Part shown: in pieces, positions 360 through 43,700 of the stretch | Layout of the letters: every line of letters starts with the position of its first letter | Position numbering within the stretch: the first letter of the stretch is position 1 | DNA from: Diphasiastrum complanatum | Lineage: Eukaryota > Streptophyta > Lycopodiopsida > Lycopodiales > Lycopodiaceae | Length of the DNA: 64,000 nucleotides | Assembly (NCBI GenBank): GCA_029204225.1 | Contig: CM055104.1 | Coordinates: 24,195,285-24,259,284, forward strand | Reading direction: 5' to 3' | Translations under genes and position numbers: made by a program | Notes under the pieces: model-generated | What the model saw: only the letters and a program-made list of their open reading frames with translations | Told to the model about the DNA's origin: nothing | Databases searched by the model: none

Positions 360-2735
360 CTATTGATGACGAGTAGAGGATGATGGTTTTTTCAATAATC
401 CAAGTCGTTCTTTCAATATAGATATAGTTGACTTTCGTAGATGATTGGTCATTGTTAATTCAAAATTACATGTCAAAACATCTACATCCTGTAGATTCAA
501 ATCGTCGACTCTTGGTTGATTTTTTGGCAATCCCTTTCTCTTGCCCTCTGGATCTACTTGCAATATTTCGAATTCATACCTTCCCAAAAAGGCATTCGTT
601 GAAGTGGTACGCAACCAATGGACACGTAGTACTTTTGTTTGATTGCTATTTTGAATAAAACCAAGTACTTTGGCAATCCAAAATGGATGTCCTTCATTGT
701 TTTCTGAAGCTAGCACAACAAGGCTTCCAATTTGGATTTCATTCAAATCACCACACCATTTCATTTTTGCAGCTTTTACACTTTGCCTATTCTTTCTTGA
801 GCCCACATAAATTTCACGTTCATCACCTTGCACAAGCTGCAAGAAATCATTATTCGAGGAAGATCTGAAGGTTCGCGACAGTTGTAGTTGATGTTTCTGA
901 TTTATGAGACCAATGAAATTCTTCAGTTGTTGATGTATGTTCGAGATTGAGCAAACTGATTTTTTTTTTTTCTTAAATCCATCCACCAATGCTGATCAAA
1001 CTAACCAAATGGATCAATCTCACAATGTTCTCTTTGCGCCTTTTGTACTTCTAGCAAGGAATTCAAGGGAGACAACACAACAAGCTTGATTTGAGTCGAT
1101 GAAATGTTGAACAAAAATCAAACTCTTTCAAGAGGTAGCCATGAAACTGAATTTGAAAATAGTTTGCCCCATAATAATATAATGCCTGACTTATTACATT
1201 TGATTTTAAACCGGTGCTGAAAGCTAATATCATTAATATTAGCTATGCATCACTCTGTTTCGTTGGACGTCTTAACATAATCACAAAAATCATATGTGTG
1301 TCTGATTAAGGACACGTTTGGCTTTGGCACATACGATTCCTTGACAATACTTTTAAGCACTGGTAAAAAAAATGCTTTCTTGCGTCTCAACCTCTTAGAA
1401 AAGCAACTAAACATTTGATCAATTTGATCGTGGGTATGTCTTACCAACAAAAATCCTATTTTTACTTTTTTGAAAAAAAATTTCTCCACTAGCATAGACA
1501 AGTATGCCAAAATAGTTTGGTTACTATTTTTTCTAGCAGTGTTGTCAAGCTGCAAATAAAGTATTTCTGGAAGATTTTCACCAAATTCGCAAATTATTTT
1601 ATGTACAATGGTGATTGTCAAATTTGGATCGTTTTGAACATTGGGATAATTAAAAAAGACCTTGGACTCCAAAGTGCCATTAAACACAAGTGCTCCAACG
1701 AGATGAACCTGAATAAAATCTGCCTCGTTCAAATTTTTGGGCACTCTGACAAAATGAGACAACATTGTTTTTTTCTGATCCATGCCATCAATAACAAGGC
1801 CCTGATATTTTTGTGAACATTCCAAAAATTTCTTTCGATGCTTGGCCAACTTTTGTCTTTCAACTGTTTGTCGATCTCTGTGCAATTGAAGGACTTTTGC
1901 AGCATGTACTGAAAATACAATGATTCACTTATTTAATAGAATAAAGATCATACCATAATGATATTAAAAAAGATTGCAACTTAAATTTTTTCAAAACAGA
2001 AAGTATTAAAATGAATGACAAATTTGATTAATATTTACCTTTCTCATCATTGGACTTTGCAAGTTGTTTTGCAAACTTTAACAACTCGCAAGTGAAACAT
2101 AATGTCATTTGTAATTTTTTGAGAATCTTTAACAGTCCAAAATCTCTTTTCCAAATTCTAAGAAAATATGAGTAACTCAAAAAGAGAACAATTCTTGTTT
2201 TGGCAAACTCTCATCAAAAATATTTCTAATTTTGTAAAATTATTCGACAAATGAAAATATAAGAAATTAGGCAAATTCTCTCCATGCACATCTATGAAAT
2301 GCTTTAGCCAAGCAGTTGGATTTAAAGCATCTGGAGAAACAGTTCAACCCTGTAAGAATCCCCGTAATGTTGGGTCTTTCTGAAGTTGAGCATGCATTCA
2401 TTGAAGCCGTGAGTTTCCGATTGCGTGAATTACTTTGTAAGCTTTGTGACAAACCTCCAAAGCATTTAAAAAGACGAAAAAGAGTTTTTGTTCGGCCTCA
2501 CTATTGCACACAAATAATAATTTCTCTCATCCTTACTTCGTAAAAAGAAGTTTGATCTTAATTCTTCAATTTCTCTGATACTCAGTTTTTGCAAACAACA
2601 GGATGAGCAGGAAATAATATTTCGTACCTTTTGAATCTCAGATTTTGTAATCAATTGTTTTTGACGATTCGTTAAATCAAGTGAAGATCTCAAGTCTCTC
2701 TTGTATTTTTCTTTTTGTTTATAGTCTGATCTATA
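360..2735 (-). pseudogene. DUF7869-family gene, broken (possible DDE-transposase relative)
   Basis: Family order is preserved across several frames. About 2690-2540 gives an N-terminal Cys motif (CSSCC) and ERNYYL. About 2450-2270 gives EVCHKAYKVIHAIGNSRL, then a stop, then TAWLKHFIDVHGENLP. About 2160-2042 gives RIWKRDFGLLKIL and a CFTCELLK Cys pair. A likely intron follows, with donor AAG/GTAAAT near 2040 and acceptor TTTTCAG near 1914. The core at 1911-1250 carries VIDGMDQKK, LPEILYLQLDN and HTHDQIDQMFS, the signature of the DUF7869 domain. 1250-990 continues the family's C-terminal region in shifted frames. 989-360 is an open 209-residue segment with a small BAH/chromo-like stretch (IGSLVVL, PFWIAKVLGF, VHWLR). 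Several stops and frameshifts show it is dead. The acidic residues in the three core motifs are placed like a DDE/DDD RNase-H-fold nuclease; that role is inference. Confidence 0.75.
1250..1911 (-). CDS. DUF7869 core exon of the broken gene
   Basis: This is the longest intact piece of the gene above, open for over 210 codons. It has the conserved family motifs DGMDQKK, then HLVGALVF, then LTITIVH, then LYLQLDN, then KVKIGFLLVRHTHDQIDQMFS. The exon start is placed at the acceptor TTTTCAG rather than at the internal ATG at 1885, because family-like sequence (HAAKVLQLHRDRQ) continues upstream of that ATG to the splice site. Candidate metal ligands are the Asp of DGMD, the Asp of LQLDN and the Asp pair of HDQID. 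Family membership is recognised from sequence pattern; enzymatic activity is inferred. Confidence 0.7.
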
Positions 2736-10799: not shown

Positions 10800-11973
10800 A
10801 CCTACGAGCAACAAAGTCATCTAGCCCATAGTGTAGAGACCAGTGCTGGGCAGGTATATAGGTGCCCAGGTGGTATTGTAGCGCAGGCATCCCAAAGGGA
10901 GCCGGGAAACACGACTTAGCTTCCCAGCTTTCAACTCTTGCCATCCGAACCCACTTGACATACAAGCAGCCAACTCGCCAACAACGATCAGACTTAACCA
11001 ACTTGAAGTTCCGAGGACCAACATTGAGATCCAACCTGGCGCCATGCCAGATGGGGGGTCCCGATGTGGGTGACTTCCCTCCAAGCAAGCCGCCCGACAT
11101 ACATCAAACTTAACCAACTCGAAGCTTCGTTACAAACGAGTAACATCCATTCCAAGCAAGCGGTCTGACTTACATCAGACTTAACCAACTGAAAGCTTCG
11201 TCACGAGCGCTGGAAGCCACCCTGGCGCCTCGCCAGACTGGACAGCCATAAACAGGTAACATCCACCCAAGCAAGCCATCCAACTCAGCCGACAGGTTAG
11301 AGCCCGTTCCCCAAGAGCTTAACCCATTCACGTTCATGCAAGGAACACTCAGAACCACAAGCCGCGACAGATATGGAAACAACCAGTTCCTGGACCAAAT
11401 GGTCCCGACAGCATACCGCTGGCGCCACGGACCGAATGGTCCCGACGGCATACCGCTGGCGTCCCGGGATACGACCCTCAGCTATGTGCCAAGTTAAAAA
11501 TTTTGAAAGCGGCCTTACAACTGGCGCTTTTACCGAACACTGAAACCCAGAAGGTAATCAGAGTCAGTTTAAGGAAAATCCCACTTTATTGATAAATCTG
11601 AGAAGGTTACATTTCAAGTGTGTGACCGACCCTAGTCTCCGGGGCGCTAGCATGCCAAGGCGAGAGCCATGCCAACATTCCAGCAAGGGAGGCTGAGACT
11701 TGGTTGGAGCTCGCCCTGATCGCAACCCGCACTCCCCTATAGTATTGGTGTGATTCGGCACCCCCCCTCATACCAAGCACTCTACCCAAGCTGGTAAAGC
11801 ACGTTTTTCTCTCTCTAGGATTTTCTCTTTCTAGAAAGTCATTTTCTCTCTCTAGATTTTATTGATCCCCAGGCTTCCTTTAATCATGCCTAGATCGTGT
11901 GAGTGATTGCACATCGATCTGAGCTCTCTGGACTTCGCTAGAACCGATCAAAGATTTTCACCCATAGGAACTT
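10800..11973 (+). mobile_element. LTR-like GC-rich block ending at a GGCGCC primer-binding site
   Basis: This block is far richer in G+C than its surroundings. It contains two diverged copies of CAAGCAAGC-x-ACATCAGACTTAACCAACT followed by GAAGCTTCG (near 11090 and 11155), and a doubled AATGGTCCCGAC plus GGCATACCGCTGGCG (near 11398-11462). It closes with CTTTCTAG-rich sequence and CCCATAGGAACTTGGCGCCGG. A TTGGCGCC start just inside the LTR is usual for Tat/Ogre-type gypsy primer-binding sites, so a long 5' LTR is plausible. No internal coding region follows and the left boundary is uncertain. Confidence 0.35.
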
Positions 11974-25480: not shown

Positions 25481-26477
25481 CACCGAGGATTCTTGATGGA
25501 TTTGGATGGTGAAACTGGATGTGGGAAAGTGATTCTCAATCAGACACATTGTCTTGATTGAGCTTTGTCTTGTCGTCTCAATGGATGCTAGTAGTATCTC
25601 CTTGGATGCAATGTATCTTGATAAGAAAATTAAACAACAATAACATACGCAAATTTAGTTAGATTATCATATTATGTATTTTTCATCAATCATACCTCAC
25701 CAAACCACTGAGTTTGTAGATTGCACTCTTGAGCTCCTCCATGAGATACATATATGCTTATCGATCATGAAACAAGAGATGCTATAAATTGTTTATTCAT
25801 GAGGTCTAAGCAACGAAAAACAACATGCCACCCTATAAAAATTTATGCCAGTCACGAGACTTTAGTCCACTTAGCTTATTGTCCAATGTAAAAGCACCAT
25901 TTGGGCATTGCATGTGTTATGTTGGTGTTCAAAATGAGGCTATTGCCTTCTTTACAATCACCTCTTCTCTCCTAGAAAAGATCCATGGAGCCTTTGGGAG
26001 GACAATTGAATTCCCAATCATTTGTGGCCATAAATTGGCCATCTTTTCTATTTCCTTCAAGTCGTCTCGTGCAACTTTTTTTAATCTTTGACACCATTGT
26101 TATAACGGATTGAGGGTGGGTCAACAGTGACCCTATGGATGGGCGGATACGGTGCGTCGTCACTGGTATGGGGTGTGTATCAATCTTCAAGGCAATTGGA
26201 GATCTAGAGTATAAGGGAAGCTCCTTAGATCTTGCTTACAAATCACAAACACAATGGATAACACACTATGGAGAAACCACCCAACCAAGTAGAAGCATCT
26301 CATTAGGGGATATTAGAACTCAAAATGGGCCCTTTGTCAAGATGTTGTTTTTGACTTCGCACGATTTCAACACTTATGTGTCCCAATGAATGGTGTCCAT
26401 CTGTGATGAACTGTAACAGTGGTTGACTTTGCAATGCAAAAAATCAATGGATACCAAGAATATATCAAAAATATTAA

Positions 26478-27713
26478 TGGATCTTGATGCATCCCTCTAC
26501 AAAAGGCTCATTCCGAAAAAGAAAAAGATCGGATAACATATATAGAAGCTCTTGGAAAGGCAGGATAATGGATTTTAAAGTATCACCTGCCGGTCAATCT
26601 ATCACAGAAGTTTTAGTTCAGCATGCTTATCTTCACAATGAGCTCAACATTCATGATCTGAAAGCAAATGATAGAAGGAAATGCAATTGTAAGTTTTCAG
26701 ATTCAATTTCTTTAGAGTAAGCATTTTCTTTAGATTATATTTTTCTTGAGATGTTTTTGTTGGTTTTGTAGATTTGTATCCATCAAATTTCGTTGAATGG
26801 CAATCCGTTCAATCGATTGTAGGAATAATCGATGTCATACATTCGGATATCAGTATTTTACAATATAAATGTCGTTCTCCAAAATCACTTTTAGAGTCAG
26901 GAGTTTCTTTTTATGATCACACCTATTAATCTGATAAAAATGCTTTAGTTGGTAGATTAGAGCCATATCCTCTACCAGATTTTCGAGTGAGGAATTTTTT
27001 TTTCTTGATGCAGCAATTTCAGAAAGTTTTTGATCTAGGCTATATATTGATATTCAGAGTATATTAAAATGTAGCATTGGATCAAAGAATAATAGATTAA
27101 GTTAGTAACTACCTTTTACTATTTTTGTTGATTTTTTTTCCAAATGCAATGTTCGGAGAACAAAAACAATGTTTATTTGTAAGGACTTGAGTGCTGATAT
27201 AATCGTCGAGTTGTTGGATAATGGTTGGGATACAAAACAAAATCAACAAGTTGAGTGCAGAGTATGTTACTCATCCATGACATTTAGATATCACACCAAA
27301 AAAAAATGCTCACTTTGCTGCTGTATTATAGAAGATGGATTAAATGCAAAAATGTTTGGAAGCCACTTGATCAAAATTTTGGAATAAACCCTCAAGAGCA
27401 ACTTCAGATGAAAGTGAAAAGAAATGACAACATTCTTGCAATGGTTCAGGTCGAGGAAGATTGGTGTCTCAATCACATTCGATCAGAACTAGACATGTTG
27501 CAATTCGATCTACCTCAGTACTATCAATTTCGATTGAATGGTGTAAAGGTACGTTATGCCATATAAAAATATTTCTTTTTTTCTATTTCTAAGTGAATCA
27601 GTTTCATAAAATATATTAACTAAAATAACTTCTCTTGTGCAGGTAAGAGTAAGGCAGGAAGAGCATATAAAATGCAAAGACATTGGAACATCCATCGAAA
27701 TTAAAGATCCATA
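26478..27713 (+). pseudogene. Spliced gene remnant, function unknown
   Basis: Exon A (ATG at 26487, to 26688) starts with a basic stretch (FRKRKRSDN) and ends at a perfect donor, GTAAGT. Acceptor TTTTGTAG at 26771 joins it in frame to exon B: LYPSNFVEWQSVQSIV, then KSLLESGVSFYDHTY, a stop at 26926, and then KNALVGRLEPYPLPDF in the same frame. A later exon (27169 on) has a Cys/His cluster, CRVCYSSMTFRYH and KKCSLCC, loosely FYVE-like. After a frameshift comes INPQEQLQMKVKRNDNI, then VEEDWCLNHIRSEL and QFRLNGVK. A final intron (27550-27642) joins VRVRQEEHIKCKDIGTSI to a stop near 27713. The last part looks like a small beta-grasp-type domain. I do not recognise the family. Confidence 0.5.
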
Positions 27714-28012
27714 GATTATGAACTATGGAATTTTGTATTATGTAATACATTTTTTTGTATACATCATTTTTTAAAATATATGAACCACTTTTTCTATGAG
27801 GCTCTTTCATTTCTATGATCTCCATTTCCATGGTGCAAAACACAATGTAAGTGCAACTGGATAATATGAGTTTTCGATAACAAGATTCATTGTCTCTTGT
27901 AGGAAATGCACTATCTCCATAGGGGAGATCTTCAGTCACTTGAACTCCAGTGACCACTACAATCGATGCTTGCCCTTGTTGATGTCTCGTATATATTGGT
28001 TGTATTTTTGGT

Positions 28013-28216
28013 CTTCATTGCCTTGGTCTGTATTGTCCTTGTCTTGGCATATTTGGATATGTTCAGATGATGATCTAATCAAAGCTTTGCTGCAAAAAAT
28101 CTAAGTGAACTAAATGTCGCATGTTTGGATTGGTTGTGGCAAAGGTTCGATCAGATCATCATTCTGAACTTATCAAAAAAAAACCAAGATAAAGACAAGG
28201 CAGACCAAGACTATGA
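28013..28216. repeat. Inverted repeat with about 79-bp arms
   Basis: Left arm 28013-28091 (CTTGGTCTGTATTGTCC, then GTTCAGATGATGATCT) pairs with right arm 28138-28216 (AGATCATCATTCTGAAC, then GACAAGGCAGACCAAG). The arms match at about three quarters of positions and leave a 46-base loop. It could be a short foldback or MITE relic. Confidence 0.75.
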
Positions 28217-28675
28217 AAAACAAACTGGTCGGAAAATCGTAGAAATTGAAGATGAATGAATCATAATCTAAATTAATAACAGGAAAAAAAACAAGTAAGA
28301 ACAACCATTGAAAAACTGTAAATATATTTTTATTAAAATTTTCTGTACATGTGTCTCATCCACATCAAGTGAGACGAATATTTAATCAATATCAACTATC
28401 TATGATCTCTAAATCCATTTCTCCAGTTGGAAGTAGCTTGGGTAGAGAACACTCGGCCACTGCAACTGGATACTAGTTAATATTAATTCGAATTAGAAAA
28501 AAACAAAAACACCATTAAAAGCTTCTAATCGAAGATTACCTGTTCCAGATTCGGAAGTCCATCTTGTAGTGCAAGCCAATTAAAAAAGTGTTTGGCATTG
28601 CATACGGTATACCAACCACAACTGACAGAATCAACCTGCTGGGAGGACTGCAGAATCTAAATTTTAACATTACGA

Positions 28676-28833
28676 GATATCGGATCAACGCGCAAGATGT
28701 TATAACTAAATCTACAATGGAAACAAGGGCGCGTCAAACCGATATCAAAAAAATATTTTTTGAAAATTGGATCAGCGCGCACATTATAAAAAGAAACCAA
28801 ACAATAACTACAAGGGTGCGTCGAAACGATATT
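28676..28833. repeat. Dyad repeat units 1 and 2
   Basis: Unit 1: half-site ATCGGATCAACGCGC ending at 28693, 35 bases, then GCGCGTCAAACCGAT from 28729. Unit 2: GGATCAGCGCGC ending at 28780, 35 bases, then GTGCGTCGAAACGAT from 28816. The two are 87 bp apart and their spacers both end in ACAAGG. They lie 3' of the H3-like ORF. Confidence 0.85.
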
Positions 28834-28934
28834 GATAAATTTTTACCTCTGCATCAACAATTTTTAGCTTCGTATATGCTTTTGCATTTGGTACTGGAAA
28901 GAGTTCCAGTATTTTCTGTATATGGCTCCTGGCA

Positions 28935-28940
<6 letters not shown>

Positions 28941-28967
<27 letters not shown>
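28941..28967 (+). repeat. (GT)13 microsatellite
   Basis: Short GT array inside a spurious 153-codon ORF. Confidence 0.95.
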
Positions 28968-28971
<4 letters not shown>

Positions 28972-29275
28972 GAGTTCATCTTGAAACAAACTGGATTACA
29001 CACACCCTTATCATTAACGTATAAGGACAACACATATAAGCTCCAATGATCATTACAATTAGAAAACAATAAGTTAATGAGAATCAATGTGAATTCAAAA
29101 TTCATATGAAAAATTCAACATAATAAAATCTGAAAAAAAGACACTTACTTTGTTATGTATGGCAGCACAAGAATTGGAGTCCTCTGTCTGACGTATTGGA
29201 GCATATCATCGTGCAGATGTTTGAAATCAGGGAAGTCAAATGAAGCCATGAATTGAAGGTGAAACAATGCTACAT

Positions 29276-30376
29276 CTATAAACAATGGGGTTTGGAAAAA
29301 TCCATCCAATACTGAATGGCCCCACCTCCTACATTGTCACCTAGTATTTTATCCCTACTTTCTAATTCACCTGTATCTAAACTAGAAAGGGGGAGACCAG
29401 CATTAGTCTTTGGCATCCTGAAATTGTATTGAGGGCCTAAACCTTTAAGATATGTGTTTAACAAATGGTCATACTGTACATATTGAGGAGTATTTACAAA
29501 GGCAACTGTAGGGGGTGACAGAAGTAATACAGATAAACCAGAAAAAGAATTGTCATTCAAAATTGATTCTACCTTTACATAAAAATCATCTAAATCATTT
29601 TCTAGAACAGGTGGAGGGGAACTATTATTTATGGGGGTAGGAGGAGGAGATTTAGGAGGAGATTTATTAGGAGAGGAAGATTTAGCAGGAGAAGTTAAAG
29701 TTGGAGTTCTGGGAGGAGAAGAAAGAGACTTAGGAAGATAATTGGGAGGAGAATGCCTAGAAGGAAGAATCTCATCCAAAGGAGATGGCTTGGAAAAATC
29801 CCTCACTTTATTTGGAGGGTCAAGAGACCTCCTCTTCTTTGAAACACTCCCGCTCTGTATACGAATAATAAGCTGGGATGGTTGAGATTGCTTTCGTTTT
29901 GTCCTCCCTGAATCTTGTTTTGGAGGAGAGGAGGGAGCATGTCTAAAGTATTTTGCAAATTTGTCATATGTGTCCCGAAGCCTAAACACAATGTTGACAT
30001 CCTTGGGCATGATGGTCACCCTATTGGCATGGACAGCTGCAACAACAGTATCCAAAAAAAATTTCACCTGGAAATCCTCATATGCAGTGTGCAGCGCCTC
30101 AATTGTCGTTGCCGTCCATCTCACATCTGCAGATAGACTTCTTGTAACCCGCCTGATAGATCTCTGTATGTGAGCTTTCAGAATCAGAAGATTATTTGTC
30201 TTCTGTAGCTTCTGAATATCCTTGAGCCATGGTGGGTCTCTCCTTCTGCCCCTTGGCCTAGGAGGAGGTGGTGGTGGACGAGGTGGTGGTTGTGGACTTC
30301 TTGTCCCGCTCCTGAGATTCGTATTCCACCAGGGTGGCCTCGTGCAGTTTGCTTGGTCCGTGCCATTAATGATCAA
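29276..30376 (-). CDS. Histone H3-like fold protein with long C-terminal extension
   Basis: The 366-codon ORF encodes a Pro/Arg-rich N region (about residues 25-48), then a full H3-type fold at residues 50-140: WLKDIQKLQKTNNLLI (alphaN), IQRSIRRVTRSL (alpha1), VRWTATTIEALHTAYEDF (alpha2), then AAVHANRVTIMPKDVNIV (loop 2 and alpha3). RVTIMPKD is identical to canonical H3. VRWTA, where canonical H3 has LRFQS, recalls CENH3. Residues 145-255 are a Pro/Ser/Lys-rich tail and 256-366 a more complex C domain I cannot place; known H3 proteins end soon after alpha3. The canonical H3 start MARTKQTAR is encoded at 30366-30340 in another frame of the same strand, so true translation needs a frame change, or the gene has lost one base. 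A TATA box lies 230 bp upstream and two dyad units fall in the leader. A chromatin role is inferred from the fold. Confidence 0.8.
   Translation of the reverse strand: MIINGTDQANCTRPPWWNTNLRSGTRSPQPPPRPPPPPPRPRGRRRDPPWLKDIQKLQKTNNLLILKAHIQRSIRRVTRSLSADVRWTATTIEALHTAYEDFQVKFFLDTVVAAVHANRVTIMPKDVNIVFRLRDTYDKFAKYFRHAPSSPPKQDSGRTKRKQSQPSQLIIRIQSGSVSKKRRSLDPPNKVRDFSKPSPLDEILPSRHSPPNYLPKSLSSPPRTPTLTSPAKSSSPNKSPPKSPPPTPINNSSPPPVLENDLDDFYVKVESILNDNSFSGLSVLLLSPPTVAFVNTPQYVQYDHLLNTYLKGLGPQYNFRMPKTNAGLPLSSLDTGELESRDKILGDNVGGGAIQYWMDFSKPHCL
30184..30366 (-). other. Out-of-frame H3 N-terminus (MARTKQTAR)
   Basis: The first nine codons of this frame are exactly the H3 N-terminal tail, including Lys4. After them the frame has no H3 likeness. 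H3-like sequence resumes in the overlapping frame of the 366-codon ORF (tail end RPRGRRRDPPWLKDI against H3 KPHRYRPGTVALREI). The simplest reading is one start codon at 30366 and a single-base loss just after Arg8; a short intron or programmed minus-one shift is possible, but I see no classic slippery site. Confidence 0.75.
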
Positions 30377-30537
30377 TATCGGATCAGCGCGCGAAGAAGG
30401 TGAACCCAGGATCAGAAGTCAGGTAGAGCGCGTTGAACCGATACCTGATCTCTACAATATCGATAGCTAGTAGCGGATGGGCGCGCGAGTAATTGCGGTT
30501 CGTAAGAAGTTTGTCTCGAGCGCGTTGTATCGCTATC
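30374..30537. repeat. Dyad repeat units 3 and 4
   Basis: Unit 3: ATCGGATCAGCGCGC ending at 30392, 35 bases, GCGCGTTGAACCGAT from 30428. Unit 4: GCGGATGGGCGCGC ending at 30486, 33 bases, GCGCGTTGTATCGCT from 30520. Unit 3 ends eight bases from the MARTKQTAR start codon. Confidence 0.85.
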
Positions 30538-30595
30538 GCATGGATGTAGAAAACTGTAAGAACTTTAAGCAAAAAAATTTCAGTGTCATCTATCA

Positions 30596-30605
30596 GTATA
30601 TATAG
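30596..30605 (-). promoter_or_regulatory. TATA box upstream of the H3-like ORF
   Basis: The minus strand reads TTCTCTATATATACTG about 230 bp upstream of the ATG at 30366, with no competing gene between. Dyad units 3 and 4 would lie in the transcribed leader. Confidence 0.45.
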
Positions 30606-30835
30606 AGAAAATTTGCACTGATTGAAAATGTCGTGGGTTGGATGGCCGAGGCTTGAATTACGATGATGATTTCTCCAAGGCTTGTCAATCAAATCAAACT
30701 AAATATCCGTCTATCATCAAAATGATTAGTCAATATCGAATAAAACAGAATTAATTTCATCTTAAGTATAGTCACATCTACAATTTAAGCTACAAAAGTA
30801 TGGTCACATCTAAAATTTATTGCTGAAATTGACAA

Positions 30836-31238
30836 TGAGTCTACTGAATCAGGCTTTGATCATGCAAAATACACTCCAATAATTTTGAATTGTCGAAAAG
30901 CTTTTTTTCCTACAATAGCGATTCAACACGCACAGTCCAAGTGAAAAGTCATTGTCTTCTCTAAAGGCACGCTGATCCGATATCCAGTATTTCATCCGAT
31001 AGCTAATCGAGGAGCATATACAACATTTGAAAATCAGAGGTGCTGTTCTCGCGCGCTGAACAGATATTGGACGGAATATATGAAGAGTTTATTGAATCAA
31101 ACTTTGAGCATGCATAATAGGGTCCAATAGTTTTCAAATTTTCAAAAAAAAATTTGCCCCTACAATAGCGATTCGACACGCGTAGTCCAAATGGAGAATA
31201 ACCATTTTCCACCAGGCGCACTGATCTGACATCTGATA
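30836..31238. repeat. Dyad repeat units 5-7 within a 250-bp tandem duplication
   Basis: Unit 5: AGCGATTCAACACGC (30917-30931), 35 bases, GCACGCTGATCCGAT from 30967. Unit 6: weak left half at 31001-31015, 35 bases, GCGCGCTGAACAGAT from 31051. Unit 7: AGCGATTCGACACGC (31167-31181), about 34 bases, GCGCACTGATCTGAC from 31216. Units 5 and 7 share flanks (TGAATCA, CTTTGA-CATGCA, CCTACAATAGCG) and spacer sequence (AGTCCAA), showing duplication of an about 250-bp block. Confidence 0.8.
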
Positions 31239-31721
31239 TGCAAAAGAATTATATTGGAGCGCCTTATGAACGACTAATAAAATGTTCTAAATGAACATTA
31301 TCTCAAAAGAAAAAATATCTTCTTTACTCTGCTTAAATAGGGGCAGAGATTGTAATAATTCTTCTCGTACACATTTTCCAATGATATCCATTTATCATTT
31401 GTTTAGTATTTGTTTAATAATTATTGGAGGAGGCTACTAATTGAATATTTAATGTATTCCAGCGCAGGTACCGATTCGAGGATCAGGGCTAATCATGATT
31501 CGTTGAATCTAGACTAGTTAAAATATTCCGGCATAGGTACAAATTTGTCTCACTCTGATTGGTGAATATATATAGGCTGTGTTTCTCAATTTGTTACTTG
31601 ACAAATGTATGGCTGTGATCAACACGAATTAGCTATAAATATGGGCACCAATTGTCATATTTTCAATTCCGTGATCTTTTATTCTGAACTCACAAGTCTT
31701 TTCGTTTCCTTTCTATCTCAC

Positions 31722-31907
31722 GATATCGAATCGATGCGCGCCTTCTCAAACATTGCATGGTTGGATTCATTCAGGCGCGCTGAATCGATATCACCCACTT
31801 TTGACGTGTTCTCACGGAAAATTTAAATCTTGTCCTAGCAATATCGGATCAACACATGCACTCTTGTTTTGTCCTCTACTGATATCATTCTGTCGCGTTT
31901 GATTTTT
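31722..31907. repeat. Dyad repeat units 8 and 9
   Basis: Unit 8: ATCGAATCGATGCGC (31725-31739), 35 bases, GCGCGCTGAATCGAT from 31775. Unit 9: ATCGGATCAACACAT (31843-31857), 35 bases, decayed right half TCGCGTTTGAT from 31893. They lie at the 5' edge of the acidic ORF remnant. Confidence 0.8.
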
Positions 31908-32649
31908 TCAATGTCAATGACATTCCATCTGAGAAGTTAGAGTATTTTGCTAGTATTTTTTTGGCTCCCTTCGATATTGATAAGCTAGTTTATGAGAATC
32001 GTTATAATTTAATTTTTTATCTTGATAATTTTTCTCAGATTATTAGTACTCCTGTTTTGGATATAGATAGTTTTTGTTTCGTTCATTTTCAGGACCTTGT
32101 GCATTCCCAACCATCCTCTAAGCATAAACACAATAGAAAGTACTCTAACTTGCATGACCATTTTAAAAAATATATATTATTGTGATATCCACAAAAGAAT
32201 ATGTCGCCTTATAATCAAAGGAATGGCTTTTGTCTTTTACATATCTGCTGAAATTCCAGATGATGAGTCTGTTGAATCTTCAACTGTTCCATTGATCGAA
32301 GCATCTTCACCTGCTCCAGTTGATGTAGATGATGCAGATACTGATATAGGGTTGAAGCTGAAGCATCTATGACTTCAGATTATCAAAAAACTCTCCCTCG
32401 TTCTATAATCCTCTCTGATTCTCTTCCATCTGCAACTCTTGTTAATCAATTAACTCTACTCGATGTTCCCTTAGATTTTATAAATAATGAAAGTTATATT
32501 TCATTAATGATATAGAAGATGTTTTGAATTTGAGAGAGGATGAAATCCTCTCAATTTTTGCTCAAAATTTATCTGAATTTTCTGACATTGTTGATTACTC
32601 CTATGATGACTTTCAAAGTGAGATAGATTATGATAAAGATGGCAATTGA
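31883..32649 (+). pseudogene. Acidic ORF remnant, function unknown
   Basis: Three overlapping plus-strand frames look coding in succession. The first (31883-32183) includes NDIPSEKLEYFASIFL and PFDIDKLVYENRYNLIFYLD, with a CATTTTCAG acceptor-like site near 32091. The second (to 32372) includes IPDDESVESSTVPLIE and PVDVDDADTDIG. The third (to 32514) includes LTLLDVPLDFINN. A last frame then gives DIEDVLNLREDEILSIF and SEIDYDKDGN before a stop at 32649. The composition is strongly acidic. It could be a multi-exon gene or a frameshifted relic. It points away from the H3-like ORF, with dyad units between them. I do not recognise the family. Confidence 0.4.
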
Positions 32650-35290
32650 AAATCTAGGACTGAAAATTTCTTGATAATCCACTCATTGGACTTGAGTGAA
32701 TCCTTTAGCCACTAGTTGTGCTTTTCATTTAGCAATGGAACCATTAGAGTTGATCTTCTTCTTGAAGATCCACTTGTTGTCGATAATTCTCTTGTGAGTA
32801 AGGAAGTCGACCAGTGTCCAGGTCTGGTTCATCAAAAGTGAGTTGTACTCGTTTTCCATAGCTTCTTGCCACTTCACAGCATCCTTGGAGTTAATTGCTT
32901 CAGCTAGGCTCTCTGGTTCTTCTGATGGAATCCAGAATGATTGAGGTACCTCTCAGGAACTGTCCAAGTCCGTGAGGATCTGCGGATGCAATGATATTTC
33001 TTCTTGAATTTCTCTAGATTTGTTCGAGCTAGTTTGGTCTGGTCTGATGACAGGTATTGTCGGCTGCTCGGCTTCTATAGTTGTAGCTGCAGGTTCTACA
33101 GGTTGAGGATGCTGACATCGATGCTTTTTGGTAGTGTATTAGAGTTGTTACTCTTTGGAATATTTGGTTAGACAGAAATAGTAGGGAATTTGGGAATGGT
33201 GATTACGTCATCTTCCCCTTGCTTCTCTTTAAAGAGGTAGAGAAACTTTTCTTTTCTAATCTTATTTTTTATCTGTACTTTGTATAAAGTCATTAATCTA
33301 CGGTTAACTTTTCGAGAGAAAAAAAAATATTATCGTTGGAAGATTCCATGCTATGTAAAATAGGATGAAATGACATAGCATCGTTTATCGATGGCTGTTT
33401 AAAATCATAGTATGTATGTTTTTGAAATATTACATCCCTAGAGACAATTACTACATTGGTGGATGGATCGTAAACTTTATAAGCTTTATGTTCATCAGGA
33501 TAGCCAATGAAAATACATTTATTTGTCCTCTGATCCAGCTTCTTCCTAAGCTATTTAGGAATGTGAACAAAACATATACAACCAAATATTTTTAAATGGC
33601 TGACACTAGGCTTGTGTCAATGCCATGCTTCATAAAGAGTTTTGTTGTTGACGGCTCTGTTTTGTATGTAACAGGCTGTGGCAGTAGCTTCTGCCCAGTA
33701 CTTCGTAGGTAGATGTGATTGATGTATCATGGATCTGGTTAAGTTGAGAAGAGTTCAATTCTTCCTTTCTGCAATCCCATTCTATTGAGGTGAATATGAA
33801 GTGGTGAACTATCTTCTGATACCATGTTCAGCCATGTAGTCAGACATCTCATTAGAGAGGTATTTGCCACCGCCATAAGTTCGGAGTGCTTTCACTTTTG
33901 TAGACGTTTGTGTCTCAGCCATGGCCTTGAATATCTTGAAGCATTCAAAGGCTTCTGATTTGAGGTTAATGAACATGATTGTAGACCATCTAGAATAATC
34001 ATCTATGAAAGTGATAAAATAGATTGCATCTCCTAAGTACGGAGGTGGAATTGGACCACAAAGATTGTTATGTACAAGATCAAATACATGCTTTGTTTTG
34101 ATGGAATGTGATTTGAGAAACTTGCTTCTAGAGTGTTTTCCATAGATGCATGATTTATCCAATGAAGAAGAGAAATACAATCCATCAACTAAATTATTAC
34201 AATGCATATAGGAAAGTGATCTTGTATTCATGTGTCCAAATTGACTATGCCACAGAATAGCATTATCGTTTACATTTTCATTAGAGATACTAGCTAATGC
34301 AACTGAATTAGAGAGTACATAAAGATTTCCGACTCTAGTGCATGTAGTCAGAGTAGTATCATCATCGAAGGTTGTACAATGCTCAGATGAGAAAGTAACA
34401 ATGTAGCCCTCATCAATCACCTTAGAAACTGACAATAGGTTCTTTGACAACTGAGGTACGGGAAGAACATTGGTGACATAAATAGAAAGATTGTTTTTGA
34501 ACGTGATCTTGACTGTCCCTTTGCCTTCTACGTGTATGGTGCTTGAATTTTCGAGATAGATAAATTGATCTCTACTATAAGCTGCATACTAGGTAAACCA
34601 CTCCTTGCGATAGGTCATGTGTTGGGTAGTGCCGCTGTCTAGATACTAGCTATTGTGGTCTTCTTTTCCACTGTTGTAAGCCATTAACAGGTGTGTTTCT
34701 TGCTCCTTGAATTTTGCCGCATTGGAGGAGTCTGGCTACTGCGGTTGTTGCTTCGTTGCCTCATTGTAGATGTGGATATGACACTCTTTGATGTCATGAT
34801 TGACTCTCTTGCAATATTTGCGAAAAGCTTCTTGCGTGATCCACTATTCTCACCTTGAGTGTGAGGCTTATGCCGTTGCTGCTGCTGCACTTGATTCTTG
34901 CCCTTGGAATAGTCTTTCTTCTTGGTGTACAGGGCCATCGATTTCTCTTTGATGGACAGAGGCCGCTAGTCTTTCTCTGCATTTTTTCTTGAAGTAAGTG
35001 ACCGATCACCTTTTGAAGAGTGAAGTTAGGTTGCATGGAGATCATCACCACAAAGTGTTCATACGACTTTGGAAGAGAAGAAAGCAAGGTCATAACGGCA
35101 TCATCATCTTGAATAACACTTCGTACAGCTGATAACTGATCCATCAAAGTTTTGAAAGTTGTTGATGTGAGAAGTAATGGCAGTAGAATCAGACATGCTA
35201 AGAGTAAAGAACTTCCTTCCAAGGTGCAATAGAGAGCAGGAATATTTGCGGAACAGCTCGCTTGCTACAATGGGCTGCTAGATGCAAAAA
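32650..35290 (-). pseudogene. Ty1/copia element 1, decayed (gag to RT start)
   Basis: Minus-strand order: gag (UBN2 type) at 35222-34794 with HINNFQNFDGSV-like and SLPKSYEHFVVMISMQ; gag-pre-integrase and integrase at 34450-33809 with MSKNLLSVSKVIDEGY, ILWHSQFGHMNTRSL and TFIDDYSRW; then, through many stops, the start of RT at about 32960-32660 (KWQEAMENEYNSL, IIDNKWIFKKK). Catalytic positions are lost: HTDLCGP has become HNNLCGP and the SDRGGEY motif reads TYGGGKY. The palm (YVDD) region of RT and RNase H are absent, and no LTR was recognised on either side. Confidence 0.8.
35236..35290 (-). repeat. Inverted partner of 37561-37615
   Basis: GCAGGAATATTTGCGGAACA, then GCTACAATGG and CTGCTAGATGCAAAAA, recur in reverse complement at 37561-37615 with few differences. 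The pair brackets the foldback element and a minisatellite. Confidence 0.85.
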
Positions 35291-35445: not shown

Positions 35446-36548
35446 CATTAGGGCCCTTTTTGAACTCAAAAAGGGCCTCTTCCTTGCCTAAAAATGTTTG
35501 ATAATCTGGATTAATTAACTTGCTAATAGTCCTATGTGGCAGTTCACCTTGGGTTTAAACTTGAGTTAAAACCTAGTCACATAGGTTGCACTTGAACCTA
35601 GTATATTAAATGAATAAAGAATTGAATTTAGTACTTTTAAAAAGATAGATTTATTTTTGAATTTGTGAAGATTGAAATTTTTTTCACACTTCATAGGTCT
35701 TTTTTCAGGCTCTATTTTCGTGAGAAAATATGTTGCAAATTTTTTGATTTTTCATTTTGAAACTTAAAAGAAACAGTACAAAGGGAGAGCCTCCCTTTGT
35801 ACCTAAGAAAAAAAAAATTTGAAAATGTAAGGGGGGTGGTACACCCCCTCTCTTGCTGCACGCTGCATGCTACACGGCCGCCGTCAAGGGAGCCACCCTA
35901 TACTTGCTCTTGTGGTTCCCTGGCGCTCACACACCCCGGGCCGTTGGCCCTGCTCAATGCCCAGCGCCCCGGATTCAGCCAGCCCCGGATTCAGCAGATG
36001 TTCGCGTCTAGGGCCTTGGGCATTGAGACGGGCCAGTGGCCTGGGGTGTGTGTGTGCCAGTAGGCCGTGCAGGGTGGAGCGTTGGGAGAGTGGGGGGGGG
36101 GGGGGGGGGGGGGTCTACCAGCCCCCTTACATTTTCACAAAAGAAAATATCTTAGGTACAAAGGTGGGGGACCCCTCCCTTTGTACCGTTTCTTTTACAT
36201 TTCGAAATGAAAAATAAAAAAATTTGCAACATATCTTCTCACCAAAATAAAACTAAAAAAAAAGACCTATGAAGTGTAAAAAAAAATTCAACTTTCACAA
36301 ATTCAAAATTTGAATTCGGACCTTGCTTATGAGTGTGACATTGTCATTATAAGGGGCTAGGGGAGTATAGTTAGAGTGTGGTTAGTGGGTGAGTTAGATT
36401 TTGGGGATTTCATCTAGGACATTGAATGTGCCATGTCATATGGACCATTCCATATCACTTGTCACTCTTTTGTTGGTACACATGTCGTCATTAACACTAA
36501 TTTTAATTAGTGAAGAGGCCCTTTTTGAGTCCAAAAAGGGCCCTAATG
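35446..36548. mobile_element. 1.1-kb foldback element with long inverted arms
   Basis: The ends are CATTAGGGCCCTTTTTG and its reverse complement. Each end is itself a small palindrome (GGCCCTTTTT, GAACTC, AAAAAGGGCC). The inner arms (about 35630-35815 and 36125-36330) pair through TTTGTACCTAAG/CTTAGGTACAAA, TTGCAAATTTTTT/AAAAAATTTGCAA and CACTTCATAGGTC/GACCTATGAAGTG. A GC-rich core (35830-36090) has no conserved ORF and ends in a run of over 20 Gs. No transposase is encoded, so it would be non-autonomous. No clear target-site duplication was found. Confidence 0.8.
36091..36113 (+). repeat. G homopolymer run
   Basis: More than 20 consecutive Gs at the inner edge of the foldback right arm; may be prone to length error. 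Confidence 0.9.
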
Positions 36549-40736: not shown

Positions 40737-43700
40737 TTACATGACCTGGTCTAAGCCAAGTTTGGCTCTAAAAGTTTCAAACTTTTCTTTACTTAAAGCT
40801 TTTGTAAATATATCAGCAACTTGTAACAACGTAGAACAATGTGCAATACTTATGTCTTCAGATTGTAATTTTTCACGCACAAAGTGATATTTTCCTTCAA
40901 TATGTTTTGTCCTTGCATGAAAGATTGGATTTTTAGCCAATTGTATTCCGCTTTGACTGTCACAGAAAATAACAATGGGATTTACCTGTTTCATGCCAAT
41001 CTCACATAACAACTTACGTAGCCAAATAGCTTCTTGGGTAGCAGAAGTCAACGCTTTATATTCGGCTTCTATGGAAGAAAGAGAAATAGTATCTTACTTC
41101 TTGCTAGACCATGAAAAACAGCCGCTACCAAAATTGAAGGTATAACCTGTTGTTGACTTTCTATCATCTATACTTCCAGCCCAATCAGCATCAACATAAC
41201 CTTGCAACTTAGGTAAAACACTTTGTCTTTTGTAGATTAGACCAAGGTTCGGTGTACCTTTCACATACCTCAAAATCCTTTTTGCAGCTTTCCAATGGTC
41301 CATAGTGGGTGATTACATGAATTGGCTAATCAAACTTACAACATAGTAGATATCAAGACGTGTAGTCGTAAGATATATTAAACTTCCAACTAGCTGATGA
41401 AATAGTGTAGCATCAACATGTGCACTATCATCAATACGAGATAATTTCTTACCAGCTTCGCAAGGGGTGATGGAAGGTTTGCACTCTGTCATGTGAAATC
41501 TCTCCAATATCTCGCCTACATACTTGTTTTGACATAACCTGATATCACTACTAGTTTGCCATACTTCGACACCCAAGCAATAGTGCATAAGATCTAAATC
41601 TGTCATCTCAAATTGCTTGCACAAGTTGGCTTTGATAGAACGAGTGAGGTTCTCATCATTGCCAGTGATAATGATATCATCAACGTAAAGTACAATCAAG
41701 GCAATGATGTCATCATGTATAAGAACATAAAGATTTGGATCTGAATTTGTTCTTACAAATTCATGTAAAAGAAAGTAACTGTCAATGCATCCATACCATG
41801 CGCGTGGCACTTGCTTAAGGCCATAAAGTGCTTTGTGTCGTTTAAATACCTTCTATTCTTGCCCTTTTGCCATGCAGCTCTACGGTTGGACCATGTAAAC
41901 TTCTTCCTCTAAGTCACCATTCAAAAATGCATACTTCACATCCATTTGATGGATCTTCCACCCAAAATGAGATGCTAAGGCAATGATAAGGCGTAGCGTA
42001 GTCCACTTAGCCACTAGAGCAAATGTCCCTTCATAGTCAATTCCTTTGCTTTGCTCATAACCCTTCACTACTAAGCGTGATTTATACTTTTCTATTGTGC
42101 CATCCGCATGAAACTTTGTTCTAAACACCCATTTGTTGTCAATGGGTTTCTTTCCAAGTGGTAGATCAACCAACTCCCATGTATCATGTCTTTGGATGGA
42201 TTCTATCTCTTCTTCCATTGCCCTTTGCCACTCTTTGTGATCTTTTGCCTCATCAAAGGTTGATGGCTCTCGACACTTCAAAATGTCAATCATTAGGGCA
42301 TGGTTTACATGATAACGATCGAGAGACTTCCTTTCCCGTGTTGATCTTCTCACTTCACTTTGTGTGCTAGATTTTGTTTGATTTAGCTTTGCGTCCTTCA
42401 TGATCTTTTCATACCATTTTGGTATCTTAGATTCAGGTGATACACTACGTGGAGAGTATGTATCCCAAGGAGTGTCCAAGTAATGCCTCTTACTTCCAAC
42501 CGGTTTCTCCTTTATTGCTCCTATTGGCAAGTACCTCCCCCTAGGCTCTTGAATAGGTGGTGTTCTTTCATATTCGCCCTCTCAACTTTTGTCTTCACGT
42601 GCATCATTTTGTGGAGCATCTTCTTCATTTTCTTCCTCCAGAATTGTGGGAAGTCTCTTGATGCTTTCACCGCTTGCATGGTCTTCATTTTCATACCTAT
42701 GTGTTTCATCAAAGATCACATCTTTGCTAATGTGAATCTTGTTCATTACAGGATCAAAACATCTGTAGGCTTTTGTTCTTTCATCATAACCGAAGAAGAT
42801 ACACTTGATTGCTTTGGCATCAAGTTTCTTTCGCTCCTCCTTTGGCACATGTACATAGGCCTTACATCCAATGACACGAAACTTGTTGATTTCTGGCTTT
42901 ATTCCAGTAAATGCTTCTTTAGGAGTCACATTTGGAACCGCAACTGTAGGGCTCCTATTTTGCAAGAATGTTGCCGCACTGCAAGCTTCCGACCAAAGTG
43001 AATCGGTCAAGCCCATTTGCTTCATCATGGAGCGTGCACTCTCCATAATAGTTCTGTTTTTCCTTTCAGCTACACCATTACTATGCGGTGTGTGTGACTG
43101 TGTGAATTGTCTTTTAATGCCGTGTTCTTTGCAAAAGTCTTCAAAATCATCATTTGTATTCACCCCCTCTATCAGATCTTAGCACTTTGATGCATGCATC
43201 TAGTTGGTTCTCTACCAAAGTTTTGAGCACCTTGAAACGAGCAAAAGCGTCGGATTTATTTTTCAAGAAATAAATCCATGTCCTCCTAGAGTAATCATCT
43301 ATGAAAGTCATAAAATAATATGCTTTCCCCAATGACATGGTCTTCATTGGGCCGCACAGGTCACTGTGAATTAGTTCCAGCGGTTTCTTAGCTCTTGCAG
43401 CTCCACCTTTCTTGAATGTCTCTCTGTGATGCTTTCCCATGATGCATCCTTCACATATTGCATGATGATCATCCTGCAATGCCGGTAACCCTATTACCAT
43501 CTTCAGCTTCGCCATCAATCTCAAGCTCCCATAGTTCAAATGACCAAGTCTTTTGTGCCACAACTCGGATTGAGATGTTGTTGAGATAGCCAAACCATAT
43601 TCACCTGGTTTTGCAGCATCCAATTTATAAAGGCCACAGTTACTATCTCTATAACCCTTCGCCACCACTTTGTGGTTGTGGTTCGTATCCTTCATAAGGC

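Follow-up and report, generated by a model that had tools for sequence, protein, structure and literature searches.

In the maize transposon Spm/En, subterminal 12-mer motifs are bound by the element's own protein TNPA, which has both activating and demethylating functions. The VANC targets of Arabidopsis VANDAL elements are short motifs that recur in the intergenic and other non-coding parts of the DNA transposon, in arrays which gain and lose copies and diverge between related families (PMC5735166, PMC10398659). Transposons of the hAT group that carry a histone H3 gene have been described in the fungi Pyrenophora tritici-repentis, whose element-borne H3 is altered in tail and fold (PMC3538342), and Pseudocercospora fijiensis (PMC6710886), and other DNA transposons carry a methylcytosine dioxygenase (PMC12730594). 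Here we analyse 64,000 nucleotides of the Diphasiastrum complanatum genome (C13:24195285-24259284, hereafter the window), in which nine pairs of facing half-sites, held about 35 bp apart, surround a histone H3-like open reading frame (ORF) in a probable plant DNA transposon. These paired units are candidate protein-binding promoter modules of fixed geometry. The genome searched comprises 1.74 Gb in 5,176 contigs.

The units would come closest in their working to two of these systems. One is the TNPA sites of Spm, which are likewise repeated, element-specific and near a promoter; the Spm sites are subterminal and form no facing pairs at a fixed distance, whereas the units are internal and lie at gene starts. 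The other is the VANC targets (PMC5735166): here too a motif is repeated in the non-coding regions of the element and the units are intergenic, but the VANC21 motif YAGTATTAY is short and arranged in arrays of one orientation, whereas the present half-sites are 18 bp long and face each other at about 35 bp. A family scan of fragments of the element's genes A to C (see below) found no VANC-like protein, no separate VANC profile having been run. The fungal H3 elements are similar in being DNA transposons with terminal inverted repeats which carry and amplify an H3-like gene. They differ in that no hAT domain was seen here in the scanned fragments, no clear target duplication was found, the host is a plant and several further genes are present; paired-site modules are not mentioned for them in the available parts of those papers. 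Our search of the open-access literature for histone-carrying plant transposons gave fungal cases only. Relative to what it returned, three things are new: the facing-pair module of fixed spacing, the fact that elements of different classes share it, and the plant host. A literature search for the plant histone octamer motif returned nothing.

Paired half-sites at a constant distance

The half-site consensus, drawn from 296 half-sites, is RATATCGGWTCRRCGCGC. Half-sites face each other as originally predicted, and their length has been extended to 18 bp: positions -3, -2 and -1, which were not used in detection, hold 0.73, 1.27 and 1.76 bits, against only 0.08-0.33 for the first five spacer bases. 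Single arms with at most two mismatches matched 8 times in the window, where shuffles gave an expectation of 0.10. With 15-bp arms, seven pairs were found around the H3-like ORF (spacer 35 in five, 33 and 34 in one each) and a further one at 31001-31065 (spacer 35); a distant, poor pair at 43171 had a spacer of 41 and 5 + 5 mismatches. With 18-bp arms, spacers of 33-36 and at most 10 mismatches in 36, eight units were scored, all inside 26301-32663, against none in the reversed-sequence control; at other spacers in the window the 18-bp arms gave 2 pairs at 0-32 and 16 at 37-120. The remaining unit, unit 9 (31843-31907 by its 15-bp arms), has a decayed right arm in the window copy, with 10 of 18 positions mismatched by eye, and well-preserved counterparts in L036-L040 (L-numbers denote stretches fetched from the genome, L001-L004 and L047-L054 because of a unit, the H3 loci not for that reason). 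The nine facing pairs predicted are thus present, eight of them clear in the window and the ninth good in other copies, with a spacer of 35 in seven, 33 in one and 34 in one (Table 1). Neighbouring units repeat at 86-87 bp in some arrays, such as window units 1 and 2, and other arrays differ. L048 (C19), a diverged H3 element some 70-90% alike over its parts, is richer in units and includes a tandem array with four in a row at 86 bp.

The same spacing recurs throughout the genome. Exact pairs, with any gap from 20 to 50 allowed, occur at 25 places (spacer 35 at 18, 36 at six and 40 at one), and the reversed pattern at none. A search over the same gaps that tolerated CpG decay returned 145 forward and 139 reverse matches, again with nothing in the control; by hand count, the 63 distinct places among the matches listed had spacers of 35 (38 places), 36 (17), 34 (3) and other lengths (5), and the five odd spacers (21, 28 or 32) all belong to a class whose spacer is palindromic. 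When spacers from 0 to 120 were admitted in 42 loci (284 kb, 13 repeated or near-duplicate loci and 12 stretches below 1 kb having been excluded beforehand), 148 of 232 pairs fell at 33-36 (3, 19, 112 and 14 pairs at 33, 34, 35 and 36), with none in the reversed control. The rest were scattered, with at most 11 at any one spacing, and many of those at 80-119 resemble, on reading, cross-pairs between neighbouring units. Exact half-sites number 522 + 499 = 1,021 genome-wide. Starting from one half-site alone, in a sample of every fifth of those listed (20 of the 1,021, on C1 and C2 only), the best partner lay at 34-35 in 14 cases and at 31, 38, 42 and 76 in one each, and two had no credible partner. 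The pair scan proposed with the original prediction therefore indicates that the spacer does not vary freely in length, being mostly 34-36.

Spacer sequence behaves otherwise. The 148 pairs fall into 21 spacer classes with a mean identity between classes of 0.34, so that the predicted difference in sequence amounts to some 21 mutually unrelated kinds. The spacer of class E (L002, L004 and L050) is a palindrome with the telomere-like words CCCTTAGGGTTTGAGC and GCTCAAACCCTAAGGG. The two arms of a unit match each other in 9.76 of 15 positions, compared with 9.70 when arms were redealt within a class (P 0.10) and 10.28 when redealt over all; between class representatives the values were 11.00 and 11.41. 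This absence of co-variation argues against a hairpin. In 18 of the 21 class representatives the arms disagree at position 6, with A in one and T in the other; this is a hand count of a feature noticed post hoc, and the split gives the unit a strand polarity.

Position of the units

In 19/19 rows compared, the distance from the end of an arm to the H3-like start is exactly 8 bp, as predicted for one unit; among these rows the start codon is ATA in L008 and L037 and the far arm is unrecognisable in L018 and L021. Before the start of gene B, which diverges from the H3-like gene, the distance is 9 bp in 6/6 rows; both sets include repeats of one place. An arm also lies 5 bp before the ATG of a probable gene D in 13/13 rows, these having been chosen by an arm 2-11 bp upstream. 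Seven units had been placed in or upstream of the 5′ leader of the H3-like ORF and two 3′ of it. The latter two are better described as directly upstream of the probable gene D ATG (28670, minus strand); if gene D is real, all nine units lie upstream of one of three genes.

Of 150 H3-like loci scored, the 30 that matched best all have units. The condition under which the original prediction would have failed, that the unit be an ordinary miniature inverted-repeat transposable element (MITE) with no link to the ORF, does not describe these loci; the link is nevertheless not exclusive, since units without the ORF exist. One such case, L002, is an ORF-less element of 1,574 bp with both termini, whose longest open stretch is 75 codons and which shares, by blastn, only termini and units with the H3 copies compared. 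Three and four units are present in relatives L004, where one terminus was seen, and L050, where none was. A unit is also found in the leader of a copia retrotransposon (L051), between what we take, from its motif, to be the primer-binding site (2981) and the gag ATG (3305). Two copia-leader loci were read, and at least eight places of the same spacer class, L051 included, were seen by eye among the matches listed. In Drosophila, the gypsy insulator and the copia leader enhancer are protein-binding repeats between primer-binding site and gag; they have another motif and no paired, fixed geometry. L049 and L053 have 65 bp in common outside the unit, and the module may have been passed on together with a segment of leader. 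Since units occur in a gene-less relative and in a copia element, the module would seem to be of use even without the H3-like gene.

The H3-carrying transposon and its genes

The units and the H3-like ORF lie inside a probable plant DNA transposon of about 10.5 kb with inverted termini. There are two end types, CATTAGGGGATATTAGAACTCAAAATGGGCCC and CATTAGGGGAAATATGGGCTCAAAATGGGCCC, and a 32-bp pattern for both matches the genome 410 + 424 = 834 times, with none for the reversed control. The C11 copy, in which both ends are present, extends over about 10.5 kb (L041:6881 to L042:420) within a copia element that it interrupts; the end of this copy on the gene A side is degenerate (CCTAGGGG). The window copy is without the right approximately 4 kb, with gene C and the right terminus, because it stops where other repeats begin. 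Inverted pairs of ends lie from 10.2 kb (C1:21824706-21834945) down to 1.4 kb apart, the gene content between them being unread, so that inverted termini bound long and short copies as in class II elements. Six of 16 H3-like matches on C1, C2 and part of C3 have one of the 100 listed ends within about 10.5 kb (hand count), where about 0.01 per 10.5-kb window would be expected from how densely ends occur.

Placing the element in a known superfamily is less simple. No clear direct repeat adjoins the ends in seven of seven end pairs inspected by eye (six pairs and L002). Flanks are loosely similar in two of them, L002 (GCCAAG/GCTAAG, 5/6 alike) and C2:1292363 (CCTAGC/CTCTAGC). The L047 insertion, for which there is an empty-site relative at window 11330-11385, is itself rearranged and offers no clean junction. 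An assignment to PIF/Harbinger by a 3-bp TTA target duplication was dropped, since the TTA lies within CATTAGGG, which is conserved in both termini, and recurs at the far end in inverted rather than direct orientation, and none of the seven pairs has a direct repeat; nor did any show the TWA target duplication of that superfamily. Transposons of the hAT group make 8-bp target duplications. None was seen in the seven pairs, and the fragments of genes A, B and C that were scanned, which are not whole genes, gave no match to the hAT transposase or dimerisation domain. The Spy group of PHIS elements makes no target-site duplication, its insertions lie within AAATTT, and its transposase is of the PHIS-type DDE kind (PMC4482050). 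The present element is like it in its inverted termini without clear target duplication and unlike it in that none of the seven end pairs lies between AAA and TTT. No transposase of that type was seen in the gene A, B and C fragments, which come from genes split by introns and decay and reach no Pfam cut-off.

The H3-like gene encodes a histone fold followed by a proline- and serine-rich part. Tail and fold are in different frames in the window copy and in one frame in other copies (e.g. L039). The best PDB matches of the fold are H3 variants (E 1.3e-16), as expected of a core histone H3 fold. The ORF is repeated, with 150 scored matches at 80% identity or more from 6,323 first-look candidates. 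Pooled over 29 copies of the fold, with stop codons skipped and near-duplicates included, pS is 0.189, pN 0.055 and omega 0.26, so that purifying selection probably acted on the fold as the family multiplied. Several in-frame stops of the fold, in L008, L011, L012 and others, are TAG codons at positions occupied by glutamine in other copies; C-to-T change at methylated CHG sites would produce this pattern. A tail start like MARTKQTTRGHSGG is present in at least 14 of 31 loci, a lower bound because the pattern was fixed. Compared with the canonical H3 tail, the K4 region is kept (ARTKQT), K9 is replaced, mostly by G, and no K27-like ARKS follows.

In window orientation the genes run A (+), D (-, probable), H3-like (-), B (+) and C (-, at the right end). 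Gene C has a Cys-rich motif, GDLK.LKCMYNVSHGATSKH.CLYC, and is possibly the transposase; a profile search of PDB with gene C returned nothing at E up to 1. The gene A, B and C fragments gave a single PHROGs match, at E 0.073, and the region has no match among phage records. Weak estimates of omega were 0.29 for gene D (20 codons, in 17 copies picked by their conserved peptide), 0.47 for B (6 copies) and 0.73 for A (3 copies).

Other repeats accompany the element. The gene C region of the C6 copy contains an inserted copia element (L043:1577-7621), whose 277-bp repeats are 96% alike. Beside the C12 copy, L035:607-772 matches the leader of the unit-bearing copia family, so that the H3 element seems to have inserted there. 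In the window, copia- and gypsy-like pol ORFs were recognised by eye, a DUF7869 protein fragment lies at 1250-1924 (minus strand; Pfam E 1.1e-44), and a second, shorter repeat at 35446-36548 has both inverted ends, CATTAGGGCCCTTTTTG..CTCAAAAAGGGCC, which resemble the termini of the H3 element and are distinct from them.

Table 1. Features of the transposon copy, in window positions
Feature	Position	Strand	Remarks
Transposon copy in window	26301..32663	.	blastn against other copies
Left terminal inverted repeat CATTAGGGGATATTAGAACTCAAAATGGGCCC	26301..26332	+	comparison with other copies; genome-wide end pattern
Gene A ORF (RKRKRSDNIYRSSW...)	26484..26720	+	similar in L035 and L036; L036 fragments without Pfam match; no unit nearby
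Gene D, first exon-like ORF (probable)	28539..28670	-	44 codons, followed by a GT donor-like site; 5 bp between its ATG and the outer edge of unit 1
Unit 1	28676..28746		spacer 35; arm mismatches 0 + 1 of 18
Unit 2	28763..28833		spacer 35; arm mismatches 2 + 2
H3-like open frame, histone fold and proline/serine-rich C-terminal part	29276..30418	-	Pfam Histone, E 1.5e-19
H3 tail ORF, start MARTKQTARGHPGG	30184..30366	-	ORF list; comparison with copies
Unit 3	30375..30445		spacer 35; end 8 bp before H3-like ATG
Unit 4	30469..30537		spacer 33; end 102 bp before H3-like ATG
Unit 5	30914..30984		spacer 35
Unit 6	30998..31068		spacer 35
Unit 7	31164..31233		spacer 34
Unit 8	31722..31792		spacer 35
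Unit 9	31840..31910		spacer 35; decayed right arm, outside the eight scored; elsewhere end 9 bp before gene B ATG
Gene B remnant (FDIDKLVYEN...)	31961..32185	+	divergent from H3-like ORF; no Pfam match in fragments of two copies

Discussion

On balance we think it probable that the units are protein-binding cis or promoter modules of fixed geometry in an H3-carrying plant DNA transposon. A constant distance, a free spacer, motif-like arms that do not co-vary and a place at gene starts together point to a protein which sits on two half-sites of double-stranded DNA and acts on transcription. The original prediction had reasoned from fixed distance and free spacer to selection by a bound protein, and at the level of sequence this is well supported by the concentration of pairs at 33-36 across unrelated spacers, as also by arms that lose no self-complementarity on redealing and by the three conserved outer bases that detection did not use. 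A dimer, or two cooperating subunits, would bind the facing half-sites of each unit across some 35 bp, about five helical turns apart, with the last unit ending 5-9 bp before the starts of the H3-like gene, the divergent gene B and the probable gene D. Most likely encoded by the element itself, this protein would switch the promoters on or shield them from silencing in the manner of TNPA and VANC; the same protein may also mark the related ORF-less elements. Among the roles first suggested, that of an operator fits best.

Several observations weigh against this. Within a spacer class the arms are hardly more conserved among copies than the spacer (e.g. 0.84 versus 0.84, and 0.77 versus 0.73), which might be put down to CpG decay after insertion, and between classes the outside flanks are slightly more alike (0.38) than the spacers (0.34). 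Since the arms served to detect the units, and pairs at 33-36 to build the classes, arm similarity and class lengths are partly so by construction; the spacer histogram and the single-half-site sample are free of this bias. No binding protein was identified among the gene A, B and C fragments, all of which fall below the Pfam cut-offs (sub-threshold E 0.04-0.2), and no unit was found in the stretches that contain genes A and C. The frame of gene D has an early stop in 7/13 rows. Finally, a unit in the presumably transcribed leader of a copia element leaves room for a role in RNA.

Among the alternatives, the units could be cis sites for transposition, which bind a transposase or accessory protein in an internal synaptic complex, their position at promoters being a by-product. 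That termini and units are all that the ORF-less L002 shares with H3 copies speaks for this, as do the three and four units of L004 and L050. Yet the units are internal rather than subterminal, at about 4.7-6.1 and 7.6-7.7 kb of the 10.5 kb C11 copy, they hug start codons, and they are found in copia, a retrotransposon that moves without any such transposase; we consider this reading unlikely, if well worth keeping in mind.

That the units are RNA hairpins in 5′ leaders, with a function in translation, processing or small RNAs, strikes us as rather improbable. They do abut start codons, the copia unit should be transcribed given its place between primer-binding site and gag, and class E is palindromic throughout, spacer included. 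However, the arms do not co-evolve, the A and T at position 6 build a mismatch into 18 of 21 representatives, the unit at the H3-like gene differs in strand polarity from those at gene B and in copia, and a hairpin has no need of a loop of fixed length.

A more elaborate form of the promoter reading, in which the element encodes its own chromatin switch, is quite doubtful. Here the protein would dock on the units at gene starts and recruit or deposit the H3-like protein; because the tail keeps the K4 region and is without the silencing residues K9 and K27, promoter nucleosomes that contain it could not take silencing marks. The ORF-less elements and the copia retrotransposon would then have hijacked the same docking sites.

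A role together with the H3-like protein in partition or as a centromere-like element, as also first suggested, or in replication, would suit a histone fold beside regularly spaced sites, and is very improbable given units without the H3-like gene in L002 and the L051 leader, the dispersal of matches over many contigs and the placing of the H3-element units hard against starts. Nor is it credible that each unit is a tiny inserted MITE with ends of 15-18 bp, for all its inverted ends, constant length and many exact half-sites in the genome, since the spacers share no internal sequence between classes and, in the loci read, each class goes with a single kind of host element and occupies the same place in its copies.

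In conclusion, one module stands at two, and probably three, gene starts of a transposon, and recurs both in a relative without genes and in a retrotransposon unrelated to it. It is a compact system in which to test how a family of plant transposons may keep its genes switched on, and the half-site is long enough to serve for finding the protein that would bind it. If the H3-like protein acts at the units, transposon-carried histones would be linked to sequence-specific anti-silencing.

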